From NCBI GenBank assembly GCA_902800645.1, contig CADCFC010000006.1, positions 1 through 40,224 on the forward strand: DNA of 40,224 nt, given 5' to 3'. The notes under the pieces were generated by a model. The model was not told the DNA's origin. It ran no database searches and saw only the letters and a list, made by a program, of their open reading frames with translations. Source of the stretch: an uncultured Erysipelotrichaceae bacterium (lineage in GTDB: Bacteria; Bacillota_I; Bacilli_A; RFN20; CAG-826). Shown here one piece after another: positions 20,034-27,738 of this stretch. Position 1 is the stretch's first letter; each line of letters begins with the position of its first letter. The position numbers and the translations under genes were made by a program.

Positions 20034-20708
20034 ATGAATATCTTGCTTACTAATGATGATGGATATTTTGCTGATGGCATCAATCTACTTTATCGATTGC
20101 TTTCTAAAAAACATCATGTCGTAATCGTTGCTCCTAAAGTGGTGATGAGCGCGAAGTCTGTATCGATTATTGTTGATCGGGATGTTGAAGTTAAAAAGAT
20201 AGATGATCACACTTTTGTGATGGACGCTACTCCTAGTGATTGTGTCGCCTTTGGTCTATCTTCTTTAGATGTTGACTTTGACCTGGTTGTAAGTGGTTGT
20301 AACCACGGGCTTAACATCTCTTATGACACGATGTATAGCGGCACTATTGGGGCGTGTTTACAGGCTCTTACTTATCGAAAACCTGCAATTGCTATTAGTT
20401 GTAACAATAATTTTGAGATAGTTGAAAATCATTTATATGAAGTGCTTGATTATATTGAAAATAATCGACTTCTTTCGTCTGAATATATGCTTAATGTTAA
20501 CTTCCCTATGGGAAAGACGGTTAAAGAAATTAAGCTAACACATATTTACTATAGGAAAGAAGTCACATATTATATTTCTAATGGTGGAGATCAATATCGC
20601 GCTACCAGAGATCTTAAAGATTCTGAATGCGATGATATAGATAGCGATGTCTACGCCGTTAATCACGACATTATTTCGATTACTAAGTTAAGGAAAACGT
20701 TAGATTAA
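20034..20708 (+). CDS. surE: 5'/3'-nucleotidase SurE
   Basis: This 224-residue member of the SurE family dephosphorylates nucleoside monophosphates in a metal-dependent way. The metal-binding LLTNDDG (D8, D9) opens the protein, followed by the Ser-containing VVMSAKSVS, the Asn in SGCNHGLNIS and the YSGTIGAC segment. There is no ribosome binding site. A TATAAA sequence 8 bases before the ATG suggests a nearly leaderless message. It is followed after 1 base by the 900-residue membrane protein gene, so the two are probably co-transcribed, although no functional link is known. Confidence 0.92.
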   Translation: MNILLTNDDGYFADGINLLYRLLSKKHHVVIVAPKVVMSAKSVSIIVDRDVEVKKIDDHTFVMDATPSDCVAFGLSSLDVDFDLVVSGCNHGLNISYDTMYSGTIGACLQALTYRKPAIAISCNNNFEIVENHLYEVLDYIENNRLLSSEYMLNVNFPMGKTVKEIKLTHIYYRKEVTYYISNGGDQYRATRDLKDSECDDIDSDVYAVNHDIISITKLRKTLD

Positions 20709-20709
20709 T

Positions 20710-23412
20710 ATGGGCCAAGTAACCTTAAAAAACGGCGACAATGTACCTAAGGCAAAGCCAAAAGTAAAACACTATTGGTGGAGGTATCTTTTAACTTTCC
20801 TTGGTGGTTTTACTTTTTGCTTACTTTTAATTGGTGGTGGATTAGCAATTACCGGTACCGTAATTAAAAGCAGCCAACTCATTTCTATGTTTGGTGGTAA
20901 CCCTAATGATATTTTAGCCATAGAATATCAAGACCAATCCATTTTAAATATGATTTTAAGTCTCACTAGAAAAAGATTTGATACTTTGGGTGATATTGAT
21001 TCAGTTACTCCAATGATTTCTAAGTTTGTGAATGAAACACTCAATCCTATGCTAGACGAAAACATTCATTTCACCTTTGATTGGGACGAAATGAAAACCA
21101 AGCCTTTTGTCATTCAAGACACTGGTAGACCCGCTACGGAAGTAGACCCTTCTGAGACATTAGGTGATTATATTCCTAGAACCATGAAAGATAATATTAC
21201 TCTTGCTTCTTTTATTACTGGCGAAGTAAGTGGCGTTCTTAAATATTTCTTATATGAAACAATTGATCAAGGCGGTGGAGAATACACCTTTGGTGATCCT
21301 TATACATTAAGTGATTTTATTAATGGTGGCGAACATTTCTTTGATGACATCATGGACAAGATCAAAGTTGGTGATGTGATTACTATTGATGAGGACGCTG
21401 ATCCATTCCTTGCTCAAATCAAAGATTGGAAACTAACTGATTTTAATGATGACAATATTAAAGGTTTAGAAGTCGGAAAATTATTTTCTGATAGTGAAAT
21501 TGAAGGTAACCTCTTACTTCAAGCAATTAAAAGTAAGCATTGGACAATCGAAGACTTGAGCGATGAGAATAACGTTCTCGCTTTAAAGATTGATGAAATC
21601 TTTGATGTAACCGATCCAAGCACTAGTAGTCTTATAGTTTCCATTCAGGATAAAACATTAAGCGATTTGAAATCTGATGATTTTGTTGATGATTTATATT
21701 TAAAAGACGTTTTTCCTTCTGCAACTGGTATTATTGGTTCGCTTGCTAGCAAAACCTATATCGATACCGACACTGGTTTAGAAGAATATTATAGAGTTAG
21801 AGACTTAAGAAATAATTCTAGAATTCTTTCTTTGACTATCAATGATGTCTTCCCAGAACTCGTTGAAGGTGATGTTTTATATAACTTTAGAACTAAAACA
21901 CTTCAAGAAATGGGAACGATGGATATCGCTAATTTGAAGCTCACAGAAATATTCTCCCTTTCACAAATCAACGCAAATAAGTTCTTAAAAGCGATTTATG
22001 ATCTTGATAATAATTCAACAATTATGACGGTGTGTGATCAAACTGTCCTTGATAGTTTGCCTCTTGCTAGTGTTATTGATGTTGGTTCTAATAATGTTTT
22101 AATCGCCTTAACAAGCGATCCAATTAACGCGACTATTGGTAGCTTAGCTACTAGTGTTAATATGCTTAAACTTTCTGATATTCTAGGTCCTCAAACCCCT
22201 GGCTCTTTCCTAGATAGATTAATTAATTCTGACGCATTAAGAGATGCGACAATTACCACTCTCGGTTCTTCTTTTGGAAATGTTTTAATTGGTGACATAG
22301 TTGATGTAGATGATCCAAACACCCCATATGTTTTAAAATCGATGGCAAATGTTTCATTAACTAATTTATCAAGTGCGATGAATGATTTTAAAATCAAGGA
22401 TGTTATGCTTGTTTATCCTGGTGATTTATATAAAGATTTATCTTTAGATAAATACTACATATATGAAAACGATGATTGGACTCTTTTAGAAGGCGCTCGA
22501 ATCGATGAAGAATTATCGCTTTATTTAGGTGAAGATGGATATATTGAAAAGGGAGAGGCACTTTTATTTACTGGTAATGGCGCTCCTACTTCTATTGGTG
22601 GTGCAACTCAAAGAGATGCATTATATCCGGTAAGAAATAGCAGCATTAACGATACCGCCTCTTTAATTACGGGTTTGAAGGAAAACTTATTGCTTAAGGA
22701 TGTTGTTGAAATTGATTCTTCTTCTCCTAGAGTTTTACAAAATTTGAAATATACAAAACTACAAGATATCGCAGTTGAATTAAAAGAAATGACCTTAGCG
22801 GAGATTGTTGATCTCGGTTCTTCTACTTCGCCTTTATTAACTTATTTAGGTAGCAAAAAGGTATTTTCTGACACCGATAACTTTGTTACCGCTATCAATA
22901 ACATGAAATTTAATAATGTCTTTTCCGCTAGCGATTGTTCTAGTGGAGTTCTTAAAACCTTATGGGATAAGACTGGTGGAGATTTCTTAATTACTGACAT
23001 TTCTAGTCAAATTAGCGATCTCGCTTTAGTAGAGATTTTTGAAGATCAAATTTACTATATGGATGGCTCTATTAAAAAGGTCAACACTGAATGGTGGTTC
23101 TTATTAACTGAAGAAAGCGAAAAAGCATATTACGACGCTAATCCAAGTGAAAAATATATAACCCTTCATAAAGGAGCGTTATATAAGCTCACTGACATTA
23201 ATAATCTCATCGACAATATGAAATATCATATGCAAAGCGAATCTATTAGCGATCTTAACGACGCCCACTTTATCACTGTCAATTTTGATTTAACAAAAAT
23301 TATTAGCACTCCTCTACATAATACCCCTTATGAAGGAAGGGTCATTGGTTCATTAACGCTTACTGAGTTACTTGATTTACTCGGTACACAAATCTCCTTA
23401 TTTACGAATTAG
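20710..23412 (+). CDS. Large single-span protein with degenerate repeats, unknown function
   Basis: This 900-residue protein has a basic N-terminus, one membrane segment (about residues 25-52) and a long acidic extracellular part. I do not recognise it. The outer part repeats a loose unit of about 40-70 residues in which a Thr/Leu segment, a spacer and a closing LxLxDI(F/L/V) recur. Examples are LSLTINDVFP, ANLKLTEIFS, NMLKLSDILG, DFKIKDVML, KEMTLAEIVD, SDLALVEIFE and GSLTLTELLD. The regular spacing suggests a rod or solenoid. It lies directly behind surE without a good ribosome site. It could be a surface scaffold or a lipid-transfer-type rod; both are guesses. Confidence 0.85.
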   Translation: MGQVTLKNGDNVPKAKPKVKHYWWRYLLTFLGGFTFCLLLIGGGLAITGTVIKSSQLISMFGGNPNDILAIEYQDQSILNMILSLTRKRFDTLGDIDSVTPMISKFVNETLNPMLDENIHFTFDWDEMKTKPFVIQDTGRPATEVDPSETLGDYIPRTMKDNITLASFITGEVSGVLKYFLYETIDQGGGEYTFGDPYTLSDFINGGEHFFDDIMDKIKVGDVITIDEDADPFLAQIKDWKLTDFNDDNIKGLEVGKLFSDSEIEGNLLLQAIKSKHWTIEDLSDENNVLALKIDEIFDVTDPSTSSLIVSIQDKTLSDLKSDDFVDDLYLKDVFPSATGIIGSLASKTYIDTDTGLEEYYRVRDLRNNSRILSLTINDVFPELVEGDVLYNFRTKTLQEMGTMDIANLKLTEIFSLSQINANKFLKAIYDLDNNSTIMTVCDQTVLDSLPLASVIDVGSNNVLIALTSDPINATIGSLATSVNMLKLSDILGPQTPGSFLDRLINSDALRDATITTLGSSFGNVLIGDIVDVDDPNTPYVLKSMANVSLTNLSSAMNDFKIKDVMLVYPGDLYKDLSLDKYYIYENDDWTLLEGARIDEELSLYLGEDGYIEKGEALLFTGNGAPTSIGGATQRDALYPVRNSSINDTASLITGLKENLLLKDVVEIDSSSPRVLQNLKYTKLQDIAVELKEMTLAEIVDLGSSTSPLLTYLGSKKVFSDTDNFVTAINNMKFNNVFSASDCSSGVLKTLWDKTGGDFLITDISSQISDLALVEIFEDQIYYMDGSIKKVNTEWWFLLTEESEKAYYDANPSEKYITLHKGALYKLTDINNLIDNMKYHMQSESISDLNDAHFITVNFDLTKIISTPLHNTPYEGRVIGSLTLTELLDLLGTQISLFTN

Positions 23413-23497: not shown

Positions 23498-24472
23498 ATG
23501 CCATTAGTTAACACAAAAGAAATGTTTGAAAAGGCCTATAAAGGCGGATACGCCATTGGTGCTTTTAACTGCAACAACATGGAAATCGTTCAAGCGATTA
23601 CTGAAGCTGCTAAAGAATGCAATTCTCCAGTTATTCTTCAAGTCAGTGCTGGAGCAAGAAAATATGCGAAACCAGTCTACTTAAAGAAGATGGTTGAAGC
23701 CGCTGTTGAAGATACTGGTTTACCAATCGTTCTTCACCTTGACCACGGTGCAGACTTCGAAATCTGTAAAGATTGTATCGATGGTGGATTTACCTCAGTT
23801 ATGATTGACTGTTCTAGTAAACCATTTGAAGAAAATATTGCGATTACTCGTAAAGTTGTTGAATACGCTCACGCTCACGTACCATATGTCACTGTTGAAG
23901 CCGAACTTGGTACTTTAGCGGGTATTGAAGATGAAGTTAAAGTTGAACACGGTAATGAAAGCTATACCAGACCAGAAGAAGTCGAAGAATTCGTTCGTAG
24001 AACTGGTGTTGATAGTTTAGCTATTGCTATTGGAACAAGCCACGGTGCTTATAAATTCAAGCCAGAACAATGCACAAGAGATCCAAAAACCGGAAAACTT
24101 TTGCCTCCTCCATTAAGATTCGATATCTTAGAAGAAGTTAGTAAGAGACTCCCAGGTTTCCCAATCGTTTTACATGGTAGTAGCTCCGTTAACCAAGAAT
24201 ACGTTGATATTATTAACGCTCACGGTGGTGCTCTTAAAGACGCAGTTGGTGTTCCAGAAGAACAACTTCGTCATGCTGCTAGATTATCTGTTTGTAAAAT
24301 TAACATCGATAGCGACCTCCGCTTAGCGATGACTGCAGGTATCCGTCAACACTTTGAAGAACATCCTGATCACTTCGATCCACGTCAATACGTTGGTGAT
24401 GGTAGAGCCTACGTTAAAGAACTTGTTAAGCACAAAATTACTGAAGTTCTTGGCTCTAACGATAAGATCTAA
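23498..24472 (+). CDS. fba: Class II fructose-1,6-bisphosphate aldolase
   Basis: This 324-residue zinc-dependent aldolase of glycolysis and gluconeogenesis interconverts fructose-1,6-bisphosphate with dihydroxyacetone phosphate and glyceraldehyde-3-phosphate. The metal-binding LHLDHG (D82, H83), the Glu of VEAELG, the His of GTSHGAY, the His of VLHGSSSV and the phosphate-binding NIDSDLR are all in order. AAGGAAGG precedes the ATG, and its own promoter and terminator make it a single gene. Its codon use appears more biased than its neighbours', as expected for a highly expressed enzyme. A tagatose-bisphosphate aldolase is a less likely alternative. Confidence 0.95.
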   Translation: MPLVNTKEMFEKAYKGGYAIGAFNCNNMEIVQAITEAAKECNSPVILQVSAGARKYAKPVYLKKMVEAAVEDTGLPIVLHLDHGADFEICKDCIDGGFTSVMIDCSSKPFEENIAITRKVVEYAHAHVPYVTVEAELGTLAGIEDEVKVEHGNESYTRPEEVEEFVRRTGVDSLAIAIGTSHGAYKFKPEQCTRDPKTGKLLPPPLRFDILEEVSKRLPGFPIVLHGSSSVNQEYVDIINAHGGALKDAVGVPEEQLRHAARLSVCKINIDSDLRLAMTAGIRQHFEEHPDHFDPRQYVGDGRAYVKELVKHKITEVLGSNDKI

Positions 24473-24490
24473 TTTAATCATTAAATTAAC

Positions 24491-24513
24491 AAGAGACCTT
24501 CGCGGTCTCTTTT
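24491..24513 (+). terminator. Rho-independent terminator
   Basis: AAGAGACC (24491-24498) pairs with GGTCTCTT (24504-24511) around a TTCGC loop, followed by T. It terminates fba and overlaps the promoter region of the phosphatase gene. Confidence 0.85.
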
Positions 24514-24515
24514 GT

Positions 24516-24521
24516 TATACT
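24516..24521 (+). promoter_or_regulatory. -10 box for a leaderless gene
   Basis: TATACT ends 6 bases before the ATG at 24528, so transcription would start at or within one base of the start codon. The -35 would lie inside the preceding terminator stem and is poor. Confidence 0.5.
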
Positions 24522-24527
24522 TGTTTT

Positions 24528-24971
24528 ATGAATATTATCTTTATTTGTCACGGCAATATTTGTAGGTCTCCAGTCGCAGAAATACTTTTAAATAAACTCA
24601 TTAAGGAGAATCATAAAGAAAATGAATTTGTTGTTTCTTCTAGAGCGACTTCTTTAGAAGAAATAGGAAATGATATCTATCCTCCAATGAAAAGAGTTTT
24701 ATCTAATCACGGTGTTAATTTTCTTCGTCACTACGCGACAAGAATCTCTAGGGAAGAATTTGATTCTGCTGATTATATCTTTTATATGGATAGAAACAAT
24801 CTATTTAACTTAGAAAGAATGTTTGGACCTAGTAACAAGTTTCATCTTATTTCTGAATTTTATGACAATTTAGATATAGAAGACCCATGGTACACGGATA
24901 GATTTGAATTTGTGTTTGATAAGATAGAGAAAAGCGTAATTAAAATATATGAAAAAATGACCACAAAGTAG
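24528..24971 (+). CDS. Low molecular weight protein-tyrosine phosphatase
   Basis: This 147-residue phosphatase has the P-loop CHGNICRS at its N-terminus (C7, R13; C-x5-R with the second Cys at C12) and the general-acid motif DPWY near residue 118. That pair defines LMW-PTPs. The P-loop has His where Leu or Thr is common. A longer frame opens at 24354 inside fba, but it would give an unrelated N-terminus; the ATG at 24528 starts exactly at the family's first strand. There is no ribosome site. Likely substrates are tyrosine kinases or arginine-phosphorylated proteins, but none is encoded here. Confidence 0.9.
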   Translation: MNIIFICHGNICRSPVAEILLNKLIKENHKENEFVVSSRATSLEEIGNDIYPPMKRVLSNHGVNFLRHYATRISREEFDSADYIFYMDRNNLFNLERMFGPSNKFHLISEFYDNLDIEDPWYTDRFEFVFDKIEKSVIKIYEKMTTK

Positions 24972-24985
24972 TGGTCATTTATTTC
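24955..24985. terminator. Bidirectional terminator
   Basis: AAATGACCAC pairs perfectly with GTGGTCATTT around AAAGTA. It spans the phosphatase stop codon and lies between two convergent genes. Confidence 0.85.
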
Positions 24986-24999
24986 TTAATAATCAAAGA

Positions 25000-25515
25000 T
25001 TATTTTTCTTCTTTCTTTTCTTCTTCAACTTTTTCGTCTTTAGCTTTTGCTTCGAGCTTTGCCTTTGCTTCAACACCAGCCTTGTGGACATTATTGATTG
25101 TCTTAATGATGAGGAAGAGAATTAAGGCTACTAATAAGAAGTTGATGATTGCAGAAATGAAATTACCCCAGTCAATATAATTGGTTTTGCTCCAATCGAC
25201 TGAAATAGGAGTGGTTCCATCTAAAGAAGACACTGCTGGAATTGGTCCGTTAGTTGGATACCAAATTGTTCCATCAGATAAGACATAGTGGTCTAAGACT
25301 GTTCTAGCTGCTTCAAGTCCGCCATTTCCAGCTATCTTACCAATAATATAGTTAATTACTGGTTGAAGAATGCCGCTGGTTAATGCAGTAACGATAGCGG
25401 TGAAAGCACCACCAATAATGACACCAACAGCCATATCGAGGACGTTACCACGAGTAATGAATTCTTTAAACTCACCAAAGAAGCCCTTTTTATTTGGATC
25501 TTTTTTCTTGCACAT
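25000..25515 (-). CDS. mscL: Large-conductance mechanosensitive channel MscL
   Basis: This 171-residue channel opens on membrane tension to release solutes during osmotic downshock. The amphipathic N-terminal helix (FFGEFKEFITRGNVLDMAVG) and pore helix (IIGGAFTAIVTAL) match MscL, and the second membrane helix is near residues 115-140. The outer loop between the helices (about 50 residues, with WYPTNGPIPAV) is long, and the tail is a charged Lys/Glu/Ala helix. The frame begins 11 codons earlier, but AAAGGAA points to the ATG at 25515. Confidence 0.93.
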   Translation of the reverse strand: MCKKKDPNKKGFFGEFKEFITRGNVLDMAVGVIIGGAFTAIVTALTSGILQPVINYIIGKIAGNGGLEAARTVLDHYVLSDGTIWYPTNGPIPAVSSLDGTTPISVDWSKTNYIDWGNFISAIINFLLVALILFLIIKTINNVHKAGVEAKAKLEAKAKDEKVEEEKKEEK

Positions 25516-25603
25516 ATTTTTATTCCTTTCGTTTAAATAATAATTCAAACGACTTTATTTTAAAATAGTTTTTTCTAATGTATACTAACTCTAGGAGTTA
25601 AAT

Positions 25604-26608
25604 ATGATTGATTTACACTTACACCTTGATGGTTCTTTATCTATAGATGATTTTAAATTTTTAGCAGAACGTAATGGAGTGGATTTAGGCGAAGATTTCC
25701 CTAATAATGTTCGTGTTCCTGAGGGATGTAAATCTCTTGAAGAATATCTTGAAAGATTTGACCTACCTTTAAGTGTTATGCAAGATGAAATATCTATCGC
25801 GTATGTTACTAAAAGTTTAGTGAATAGACTTTATGATATGGGGTATATATATGCAGAGATTAGATTTGCTCCTCAGCTTCATACAAGAAAAGGTTTAACT
25901 CAAGAAGATGCAGTGTTGGCCGCTATAAGTGGTTTAAATAATGCTTTAAGAGATAAACAAAATTTTGATGCGAATTTAATTCTTTGTTGCATGCGTCAAG
26001 CTGACTATAAAACAAATAGGCAAACCGCTCTTTTAGCAAAAAAATATCAAGACCGCAAAGTTGTCTGTCTTGATTTGGCGGGACCTGAAGCATTTCACAC
26101 CGGAGACTTTTATCAATCTATTTTTGATGAAGCAAAAGATAATGGAGTTAACATTATCATTCATGCTGGTGAAGCTTGTGGAAGTGATGAAGTTATTAGA
26201 GCGATTGATCTACTTCACGCTAAGCGCATTGGTCACGGTGTTCATCTCGACCTCTCTAGAGAAAACGTTCGTAAAGTCGTGGAGAATAGAATCGCTTTTG
26301 AATTCTGTCCAACTAGTAACCTACAAACAACTTCTTTACCTGATTATGAACATGTCCCTTTAAAGGATTTTGATAAATATGGAATTCTTGTGACTATCAA
26401 TTCTGATAATATGACTGTTAGTAACACTGATGTATTAAAAGAATATCGTCACTTATATAAAACCTTTAAATTCACTAAATATGAAGTGAGACACTTTATC
26501 GCCAATTCGATAGAGGCCGCATTTATTTCGCAGGAAGATAAAATAAGACTACTTAAAGAACTCGATAAACGAATCGATAGCTATTATCAAAAGATTATAG
26601 AAGAATAA
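25604..26608 (+). CDS. add: Adenosine deaminase
   Basis: This 334-residue zinc enzyme converts adenosine or deoxyadenosine to inosine or deoxyinosine in purine salvage. The metal-binding DLHLHLDGS (H5, H7), the proton-shuttle Glu in HAGEACGS, the His of RIGHGVHL, CPTSNL and the final metal Asp in INSDNMTVSNT are all seen. The last motif has Asp-Asn, as I recall from many Firmicute enzymes, rather than Asp-Asp. TAGGAG precedes the ATG. It is divergent from mscL and ends at its own terminator. Confidence 0.94.
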   Translation: MIDLHLHLDGSLSIDDFKFLAERNGVDLGEDFPNNVRVPEGCKSLEEYLERFDLPLSVMQDEISIAYVTKSLVNRLYDMGYIYAEIRFAPQLHTRKGLTQEDAVLAAISGLNNALRDKQNFDANLILCCMRQADYKTNRQTALLAKKYQDRKVVCLDLAGPEAFHTGDFYQSIFDEAKDNGVNIIIHAGEACGSDEVIRAIDLLHAKRIGHGVHLDLSRENVRKVVENRIAFEFCPTSNLQTTSLPDYEHVPLKDFDKYGILVTINSDNMTVSNTDVLKEYRHLYKTFKFTKYEVRHFIANSIEAAFISQEDKIRLLKELDKRIDSYYQKIIEE

Positions 26609-26636
26609 AAAGGAGCTATGCTCCTTTATTTTTTTA
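26609..26636 (+). terminator. Rho-independent terminator
   Basis: AAAGGAG (26609-26615) pairs with CTCCTTT (26621-26627) around CTATG, then T-rich sequence. It follows the adenosine deaminase stop and overlaps the end of the convergent gene. Confidence 0.8.
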
Positions 26637-27738
26637 ATAAGTATGTTTCGAAGAATAATTCTGCCATCGGTTTATGATATGAGAACTTTACATTAGTGGT
26701 CGAATCAAACCAATTAGTGAATTCTTCCTTGGTTATGGATTTATCCTTTAAGATGTAATTCTCCTTTTTATCAGCAGGAATACATTTAATGTTATTTATC
26801 CTTTCACTTGTGAAATATGTGGTGTTGATTTTATATGGTTCCCCACCAACTAGATTAGGGAAATCGTTTAATAGAACCATTCCATCATATATTTGTCCAT
26901 CTTTATATCTATGTAGAGTTGGGAAGGCTCCCTTAGTAACATCGCTTACTATAGATTGATCAGCACCTTGATATTCAAGGGTGTAGTTATATCCGTATGT
27001 TGCGTTACCTTCTTCTGATAGTCCATATTTATCTTTTTTGGCTTGGTAGTCAGCTGTACCACGATATTTCTCCATATCAAAGAAATATAACGTTTCGCTG
27101 AATTCGACCTGATTATCAACATATGTATGAAGGAGTTTATCTTCTAGTTCAGCGCAGTCACCACATTTATTTCTACCAACATATAAATTGAAAGATTTGC
27201 CTTCTTCAATATATTGATCGAGTAGTGCTTCATCGATTTTAAAGATATTTTTTGGTTCGTTAATATAATTAGAGATCCAGGCTTCAAACTTCTGATATTC
27301 GGCGAAGATTGGTCGACTGCTATTATCTCCGTAATAGGCAGTGACTTCAAAAGTTCCTCTTCTTGCTATAGCAATCGCGGGGAAAACTTTAGAAAAGTCG
27401 AGACCAAAAGTACTTTTGGCTTCGAATTCAGTATCTTCCATAACAAAGACGTCCATGTTATGAGCGTTTTGATATGATACTAAAATCTTTTGGAAAGTAT
27501 CCCAACATCCACATGTATAGTGAGGATAAACGCAGACGATAAACGATTCTTTAAATGTGAGTTTATACTTTAAATCGTCATAGTTGATATATGAATCACC
27601 GATGAGTACTTGTGCTTGTTTTCTTACATGTCCAAAATCAATATTTATCTTGTTAAAAGTAGCTTGTGGAGCCCCACAACTAGAAAAAGAAAAACTTAAT
27701 AGTGGAATTAATGATAACAACAATGATTTTTTCTTCAT
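26626..27738 (-). CDS. Lipoprotein with tandem thioredoxin-like domains
   Basis: This 370-residue lipoprotein has its lipobox at FSSC (C21). The mature part appears to hold two thioredoxin-like folds. The first (about 45-160) has C69 and the unusual C76-G-C78-W cluster, with a cis-Pro candidate in VFPAIAI (P120). The second (about 165-290) has a clear CGDC (192-195) and a later AFPTLHRY. The role is likely thiol-disulfide exchange or reduction at the outer membrane face, but no partner such as CcdA is nearby. A perfect 17-base-spaced promoter precedes it, with a short leader lacking a ribosome site. Confidence 0.8.
   Translation of the reverse strand: MKKKSLLLSLIPLLSFSFSSCGAPQATFNKINIDFGHVRKQAQVLIGDSYINYDDLKYKLTFKESFIVCVYPHYTCGCWDTFQKILVSYQNAHNMDVFVMEDTEFEAKSTFGLDFSKVFPAIAIARRGTFEVTAYYGDNSSRPIFAEYQKFEAWISNYINEPKNIFKIDEALLDQYIEEGKSFNLYVGRNKCGDCAELEDKLLHTYVDNQVEFSETLYFFDMEKYRGTADYQAKKDKYGLSEEGNATYGYNYTLEYQGADQSIVSDVTKGAFPTLHRYKDGQIYDGMVLLNDFPNLVGGEPYKINTTYFTSERINNIKCIPADKKENYILKDKSITKEEFTNWFDSTTNVKFSYHKPMAELFFETYLLKK

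Follow-up and report, generated by a model that had tools for sequence, protein, structure and literature searches.

The window that we analyzed, a stretch of 40,224 nucleotides from an uncultured Erysipelotrichaceae bacterium, contains an open reading frame (20710-23412, + strand) that begins one base after the stop codon of surE, and it raises the question of what kind of protein is specified there and what that protein might do. The reading frame starts with ATG and comprises 900 intact codons, specifying a protein of 900 amino acids, and the gene is present in one copy in its own genome. A preliminary description of the locus had proposed a single N-terminal anchor, and hydropathy analysis bore this out, as the protein contains one hydrophobic segment, at residues ~23-45. 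As in a type II envelope protein, this sole segment is N-terminal and positive charge is greater before it than after it (six lysine or arginine residues in residues 1-25 vs one in residues 44-68). The ectodomain, moreover, is acidic in every relative (pI 4.05-4.9). The positive charge before the segment, together with the acidity of the ectodomain, makes it likely that the ectodomain lies outside the membrane; the anchor is apparently uncleaved, and neither a wall-binding nor a sorting motif was identified. The protein would thus begin with a short basic cytoplasmic tail (residues 1-22, MGQVTLKNGDNVPKAKPKVKHY; 20710..20775, + strand), assigned from its sequence and the six basic residues in residues 1-25, that leads into a single transmembrane signal anchor (residues 23-45; 20776..20844, + strand), assigned from hydropathy and regional identity. 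The anchor is the most conserved region of the protein, with a mean identity of 51% in the genus.

The preliminary description had also noted a unit, L-x-L-x-D-I-(F/L/V), that recurs about ten times. The repeat is real, but ten is an undercount. In particular, the strict motif L.L.D[IV][FLVM] was seen three times in the window protein vs 0.04 expected, the relaxed motif [LIVF].[LIVF].[DEN][IVL][FLVM] was seen 10 times vs 1.1 +/- 1.0 expected (shuffle maximum 5), and a six-residue helix-start motif was seen 17 times vs 3.1 +/- 1.7 expected (shuffle maximum 12), with 2000 shuffles serving as the control for each of the latter two motifs. Repeat detection, which the description had suggested, was performed with a hidden Markov model (HMM) seeded from a relative; this repeat HMM found seven separate units in the window protein vs 0.01 per shuffled copy, and zero units in reversed family proteins. 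In the structural model of the window protein, ~14 first-half motifs span residues 218 to 780. Successive motifs are 34-46 aa apart, except across a single step of 100 residues, in which a beta-rich insert lies. As in solenoid tandem repeats, therefore, tandem units of near-constant length occur above chance.

A profile of 230 copies of the unit has the consensus LkLgDvididsssppiLkaLkdktindLsda, followed by a short variable linker. The two halves of the unit start alike, the first with L-[K/T]-L-x-[D/E]-[V/I] and the second with [T/K]-[I/L]-x-[D/E]-[L/I]. In the first half, position 1 is L/I in 100% of copies, position 2 is K/T/S in 97%, position 3 is L/I/V, and position 5 is D/E in 76%; the second half carries T/K/S (85%), L/I/V, D/E (72%) and L/I/F. 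From the T/S-x-x-D/E pattern we infer that LxLxDI is most aptly interpreted as a start that caps a helix and that occurs twice per unit.

Structure prediction with AlphaFold2 yielded a regular series of bridges and helices in the window protein, rather than disorder or a known domain family without repeats. At 33 helix-start sites the model has a one-residue beta bridge that leads into a helix, with a hydrophobic residue at +1 in 32 of the 33 and likewise at +4 in 32, and with D/E at +3 in 23. The whole model has a mean pLDDT of 76.5 and a pTM of 0.34, with the repeat blocks mostly at 80-90. The units of the window protein are more degenerate than those of certain relatives, and the most regular array, that of the relative L042 (residues 507-830), was folded alone from an alignment of 12 sequences, giving a pLDDT of 88.6 and a pTM of 0.55. 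This array contains 16 sites whose spacings alternate between 22-25 and 12 residues, apart from one spacing of 38 residues where a second-half site was not called. The same pattern of secondary structure in each unit, as expected of a solenoid, is thus predicted both for the window protein and for the L042 array, and the solenoid that the preliminary description had envisaged emerges as a series of regular half-repeats. With pTM values of 0.34 for the full protein and 0.55 for the array, a long rod is plausible as the overall shape. An AsmA/TamB-like lipid bridge, which is built of multi-stranded beta modules, was considered and rejected; helices predominate in the model, whose bridges are one residue long, and there was no match to an AsmA/TamB family.

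Between the anchor and the C terminus, the ectodomain can be divided into five regions, all on the + strand. A helical N-terminal head (residues 46-215; 20845..21354), defined by alignment A1, regional identity and the model, contains the conserved motifs ETLGDIxxVTP and W-x-E and has a regional identity of 40%. The first repeat array (residues 216-565; 21355..22404) comprises ~10 units of 34-46 aa, as judged by the repeat HMM and the positions of motifs in the model, with first-half motifs at residues 219, 254, 293, 330, 376, 410, 451, 487, 526 and 561. It is followed by the beta-rich insert (residues 566-645; 22405..22644; modeled strands at 573-622), which is aligned in only about half of the relatives in the genus (mean coverage 0.53), and by the second array (residues 646-780; 22645..23049), for which the repeat HMM and the model indicate ~4 units, with first-half motifs at residues 661, 695, 733 and 772. 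Finally, a C-terminal domain (residues 781-900 plus the stop codon; 23050..23412), delimited by alignments A1, A3 and A8 and by pLDDT, is kept across the family with the pattern WWFLLTE ... NMxxHM ... ISDL ... LTLTELLDL and is modeled with lower confidence (pLDDT 52-72).

Searches of Pfam, NCBIfam, PHROGs and PDB sequences with the window protein returned nothing above the cut-off, in agreement with the earlier statement that the protein has no known domain. Sub-threshold matches to Glyco_hydro_49 (E 0.12), lone7_assoc_B (E 0.017) and phrog_4263 (E 0.3) were judged to be chance. The best match of a four-unit array profile among PDB sequences was unrelated (E 0.13), a Pfam search with the window protein and five relatives gave no match to a leucine-rich repeat (LRR) model at E up to 1, and Foldseek with the full-length model gave nothing at E up to 0.001. 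The Foldseek search did align residues 563-630 weakly with periplasmic chains of the type VII secretion protein EccB (Z 2.5-2.9 over 52-57 residues). This, together with a match to an NCBIfam type VII secretion-associated family (E 0.017, below the cut-off), is what might lead one to see in the protein a single-pass scaffold subunit of an envelope machine, for example one for secretion or cell-wall assembly, with the repeats as assembly surfaces. We consider such a role improbable: all of these scores fall in the noise range, the matched stretch is the optional insert that is missing from about half of the relatives, and no secretion genes adjoin the gene in the window. Identification as EccB by sequence was also rejected, there being no EccB family match in Pfam or NCBIfam.

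When the window protein was the sole query, a pattern scan of genome contigs revealed no relative; an alignment query revealed 14 named loci. These belong to Bacilli assembled from metagenomes, and several come from rumen, goat reticulum or horse faeces. The gene occurs in 16 of the 19 genomes of the genus, counting its own. Beyond the genus, matches came from roughly ten genera belonging to its GTDB family, where the distribution is patchy and the majority of sampled genomes have no match; there was none in the genomes sampled elsewhere in the order (279), class (395) and phylum (392), samples that overlap and that all lie within the phylum of the window organism. A diverged subfamily, A8, with units of 42-43 aa, could be aligned with the family of the genus (698 columns, 99.8% probability). 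Searches of viral contigs, phages and plasmids yielded no relatives, and a search of the literature on the repeat family turned up nothing relevant. Judged by sequence, the repeat family is real and undescribed, and it was found only in a single GTDB family, whose Bacilli are uncultured and live largely in the rumen or gut.

Relatives retain the anchor, the head and the C-terminal domain and differ in the number of units. Complete or nearly complete copies in the genus range from 741 to 1300 aa (leaving aside two others, which are truncated or masked), and those in other genera from ~510 to 1141 aa. In a shift-identity scan, L031 showed an internal identity of 90% over 60 residues at a shift of 222, and a value of 0.65 was recorded at a shift of 67. 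High internal identity was also found at a shift of 71 in L090 (88%) and L089 (82%), at 72 in L097 (67%), at 147 in L035 (65%), and at 35 in L041-L043 (~60%; 0.63-0.57). Growth and loss by whole units, with high identity when a sequence is shifted against itself by 34-37 aa or a multiple of this, are what one finds in solenoids, and internal identities of up to 90% at whole-unit shifts indicate that unit duplication is ongoing. L031 in addition contains four consecutive super-units of 113-118 aa that are 56-83% identical; copies 1 and 3 resemble one another, as do copies 2 and 4, and this alternating likeness indicates that a double super-unit was itself duplicated. The array of the window protein, in which internal identity does not exceed 23%, is by comparison old. 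Pairs or triples of units have been duplicated together at L042:6818-9916 and L031:7717-11526 (shifts 71-72, 111, 147 and 222), a hint that the family usually changes by blocks of several units.

The repeat gene lies between surE (20034..20708, + strand; Pfam SurE, 3.8e-43) and, at the downstream end of a block conserved in the genus, fba, the gene for a class II fructose-bisphosphate aldolase (23498..24472, + strand; Pfam F_bP_aldolase, 1.1e-100), both assignments being supported by synteny. Wherever the repeat gene was found in the genus with both flanks on the contig, the order is surE, repeat gene, fba, with one to three extra genes before fba in some species; in some relatives surE and the repeat gene overlap by a few bases. 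This arrangement suggests that surE and the repeat gene are cotranscribed. The single-base gap and the constant order are also what could be cited for the idea that the repeat protein, SurE and the products of the neighboring metabolic genes form one functional unit at the membrane. In other genera, however, the neighbors are unrelated and include gltX-, metK-, smpB- and folC-like genes (identified by eye from N-termini). Furthermore, two members of the genus (G014 and G004) keep surE and fba and have a different N-terminally anchored protein of ~560 aa in the slot, and a third (G005) has an intact surE and a slot empty of both proteins. SurE and the aldolase, moreover, are cytoplasmic enzymes, whereas the repeats are predicted to be outside. 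Such a unit is accordingly very unlikely in our view. As regards the coupling to surE that had been proposed at the outset, the gene order within the genus stands, and a functional tie to SurE is unlikely, given that the synteny is confined to the genus and that three of its members have surE without the repeat gene.

In G008, the repeat protein and the ~560 aa anchored protein are encoded in tandem. The latter family (L140:4532-6232, L141:3771-5444 and L038:9894-11570) has an N terminus resembling that of the repeat protein (MGE[IY]T...) and an LN-x-LL ... GRI pattern, which we take to recall DUF2140/YpmS-type proteins. As a homologous stalk it was rejected, and its ectodomain was treated as unrelated (61 columns aligned, 79.5% probability). 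Downstream, fba is followed by genes for a low-molecular-weight phosphotyrosine phosphatase, an MscL-like protein (minus strand) and adenosine deaminase (23498-26605 in the window, and likewise in L031-L043), in an order conserved throughout the genus. Beyond this block, at 26626-27738, is a gene for a 370 aa protein without a Pfam match, for which a weak thioredoxin-like match to a PedC/BrcD disulfide isomerase model (E 0.0012) fell below the cut-off. Shortly upstream of surE, several members of the genus encode very long secreted proteins of 1290-1350 aa (MNKLF[KT]KIAGLSLGLAMAIGVGVAVG...; L033:12481-16530, L036:1613-5524 and L043:1316-5185).

What, then, might the protein do? The reading that we favor, and to which we would give about an even chance of being correct, is that it is a solenoid stalk, acidic and extracellular, that is anchored at its N terminus, keeps both of its ends conserved and can evolve in length. 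A short basic tail would sit in the cytoplasm and a single uncleaved anchor would hold an acidic ectodomain, in which a solenoid of tandem units, each 34-46 aa long, joins the conserved head to the conserved C-terminal domain. Each unit would consist of two stacked half-repeats, in which a one-residue beta bridge precedes a helix that begins with [T/K]-L-x-[D/E]-[L/I]. Tandem duplication and loss of whole units alter their number while both ends are retained, and the resulting adjustable stalk or spacer, with whatever binding partner it may have, would set the distance of the C-terminal domain from the membrane, reaching through the wall or past it; in some species the stalk would also carry the extra beta-rich insert. 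The C-terminal domain is poorly modeled (pLDDT 52-72) and, with an identity of 32%, is no better conserved in the genus than the repeats, which argues only weakly for this domain as the working end.

The main rival to a stalk is that the repeats themselves bind ligand. The array would then be the working part, an acidic scaffold acting as an adhesin or as a binder of cations or polysaccharide, and unit number would tune avidity. The loops after the first helix are indeed acidic (D/E in 54%, 41% and 40% of copies at profile columns 8, 10 and 11, respectively), the low pI of the ectodomain is found throughout, and units turn over quickly, as is common in surface binders. However, the loop residues are not invariant and loop length differs among units, known binding domains were not found, and variation in the profile is much greater at solvent-exposed positions than at hydrophobic or helix-start ones, as in a structural repeat. 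We therefore regard a binding array as a rather doubtful alternative to the stalk.

The stalk reading extends to a broader and more tentative suggestion, which is that the array could possibly represent a previously undescribed class of solenoid, made of two alternating bridge-helix half-repeats, that serves as an evolvable molecular ruler in one family of gut Bacilli and fixes how far a conserved domain lies from the membrane. Pfam, NCBIfam and PHROGs all lack this repeat family, whose unit is simple enough to fit on a single line, and the natural length series within one genus can be used to study how solenoids gain and lose units. The array might be usable as a design scaffold, and what is likely a surface structure could label, or serve to recognise, lineages of uncultured gut Bacilli with small genomes.

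The protein resembles solenoid repeats generally (alpha and alpha/beta, for example LRRs) in its tandem units of near-constant length, in the single predicted pattern of each unit and in the duplication of whole units. Unlike those of known solenoids, its two-half-repeat consensus matches no Pfam repeat model, and, lacking LxxLxLxxN in the profile consensus, it cannot be recognised as an LRR by sequence. With Gram-positive anchored surface proteins that have a repetitive stalk it shares a single anchor, a repetitive middle of variable length and conserved ends. In classical wall-anchored surface proteins the anchor is a C-terminal sorting signal; no such signal is visible in the sequence of the window protein, whose anchor, in contrast, is N-terminal and apparently uncleaved, so that the C terminus would point away from the cell. 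The Knotted Solenoid fold of Brevundimonas, described as a knotted soluble homodimer of all-beta coils (PMC13123833), likewise represents a family of solenoid repeats restricted to a single bacterial group. The protein described here differs in its phylum and in its half-repeats, which are predicted to be mainly helical and are carried on a membrane anchor.
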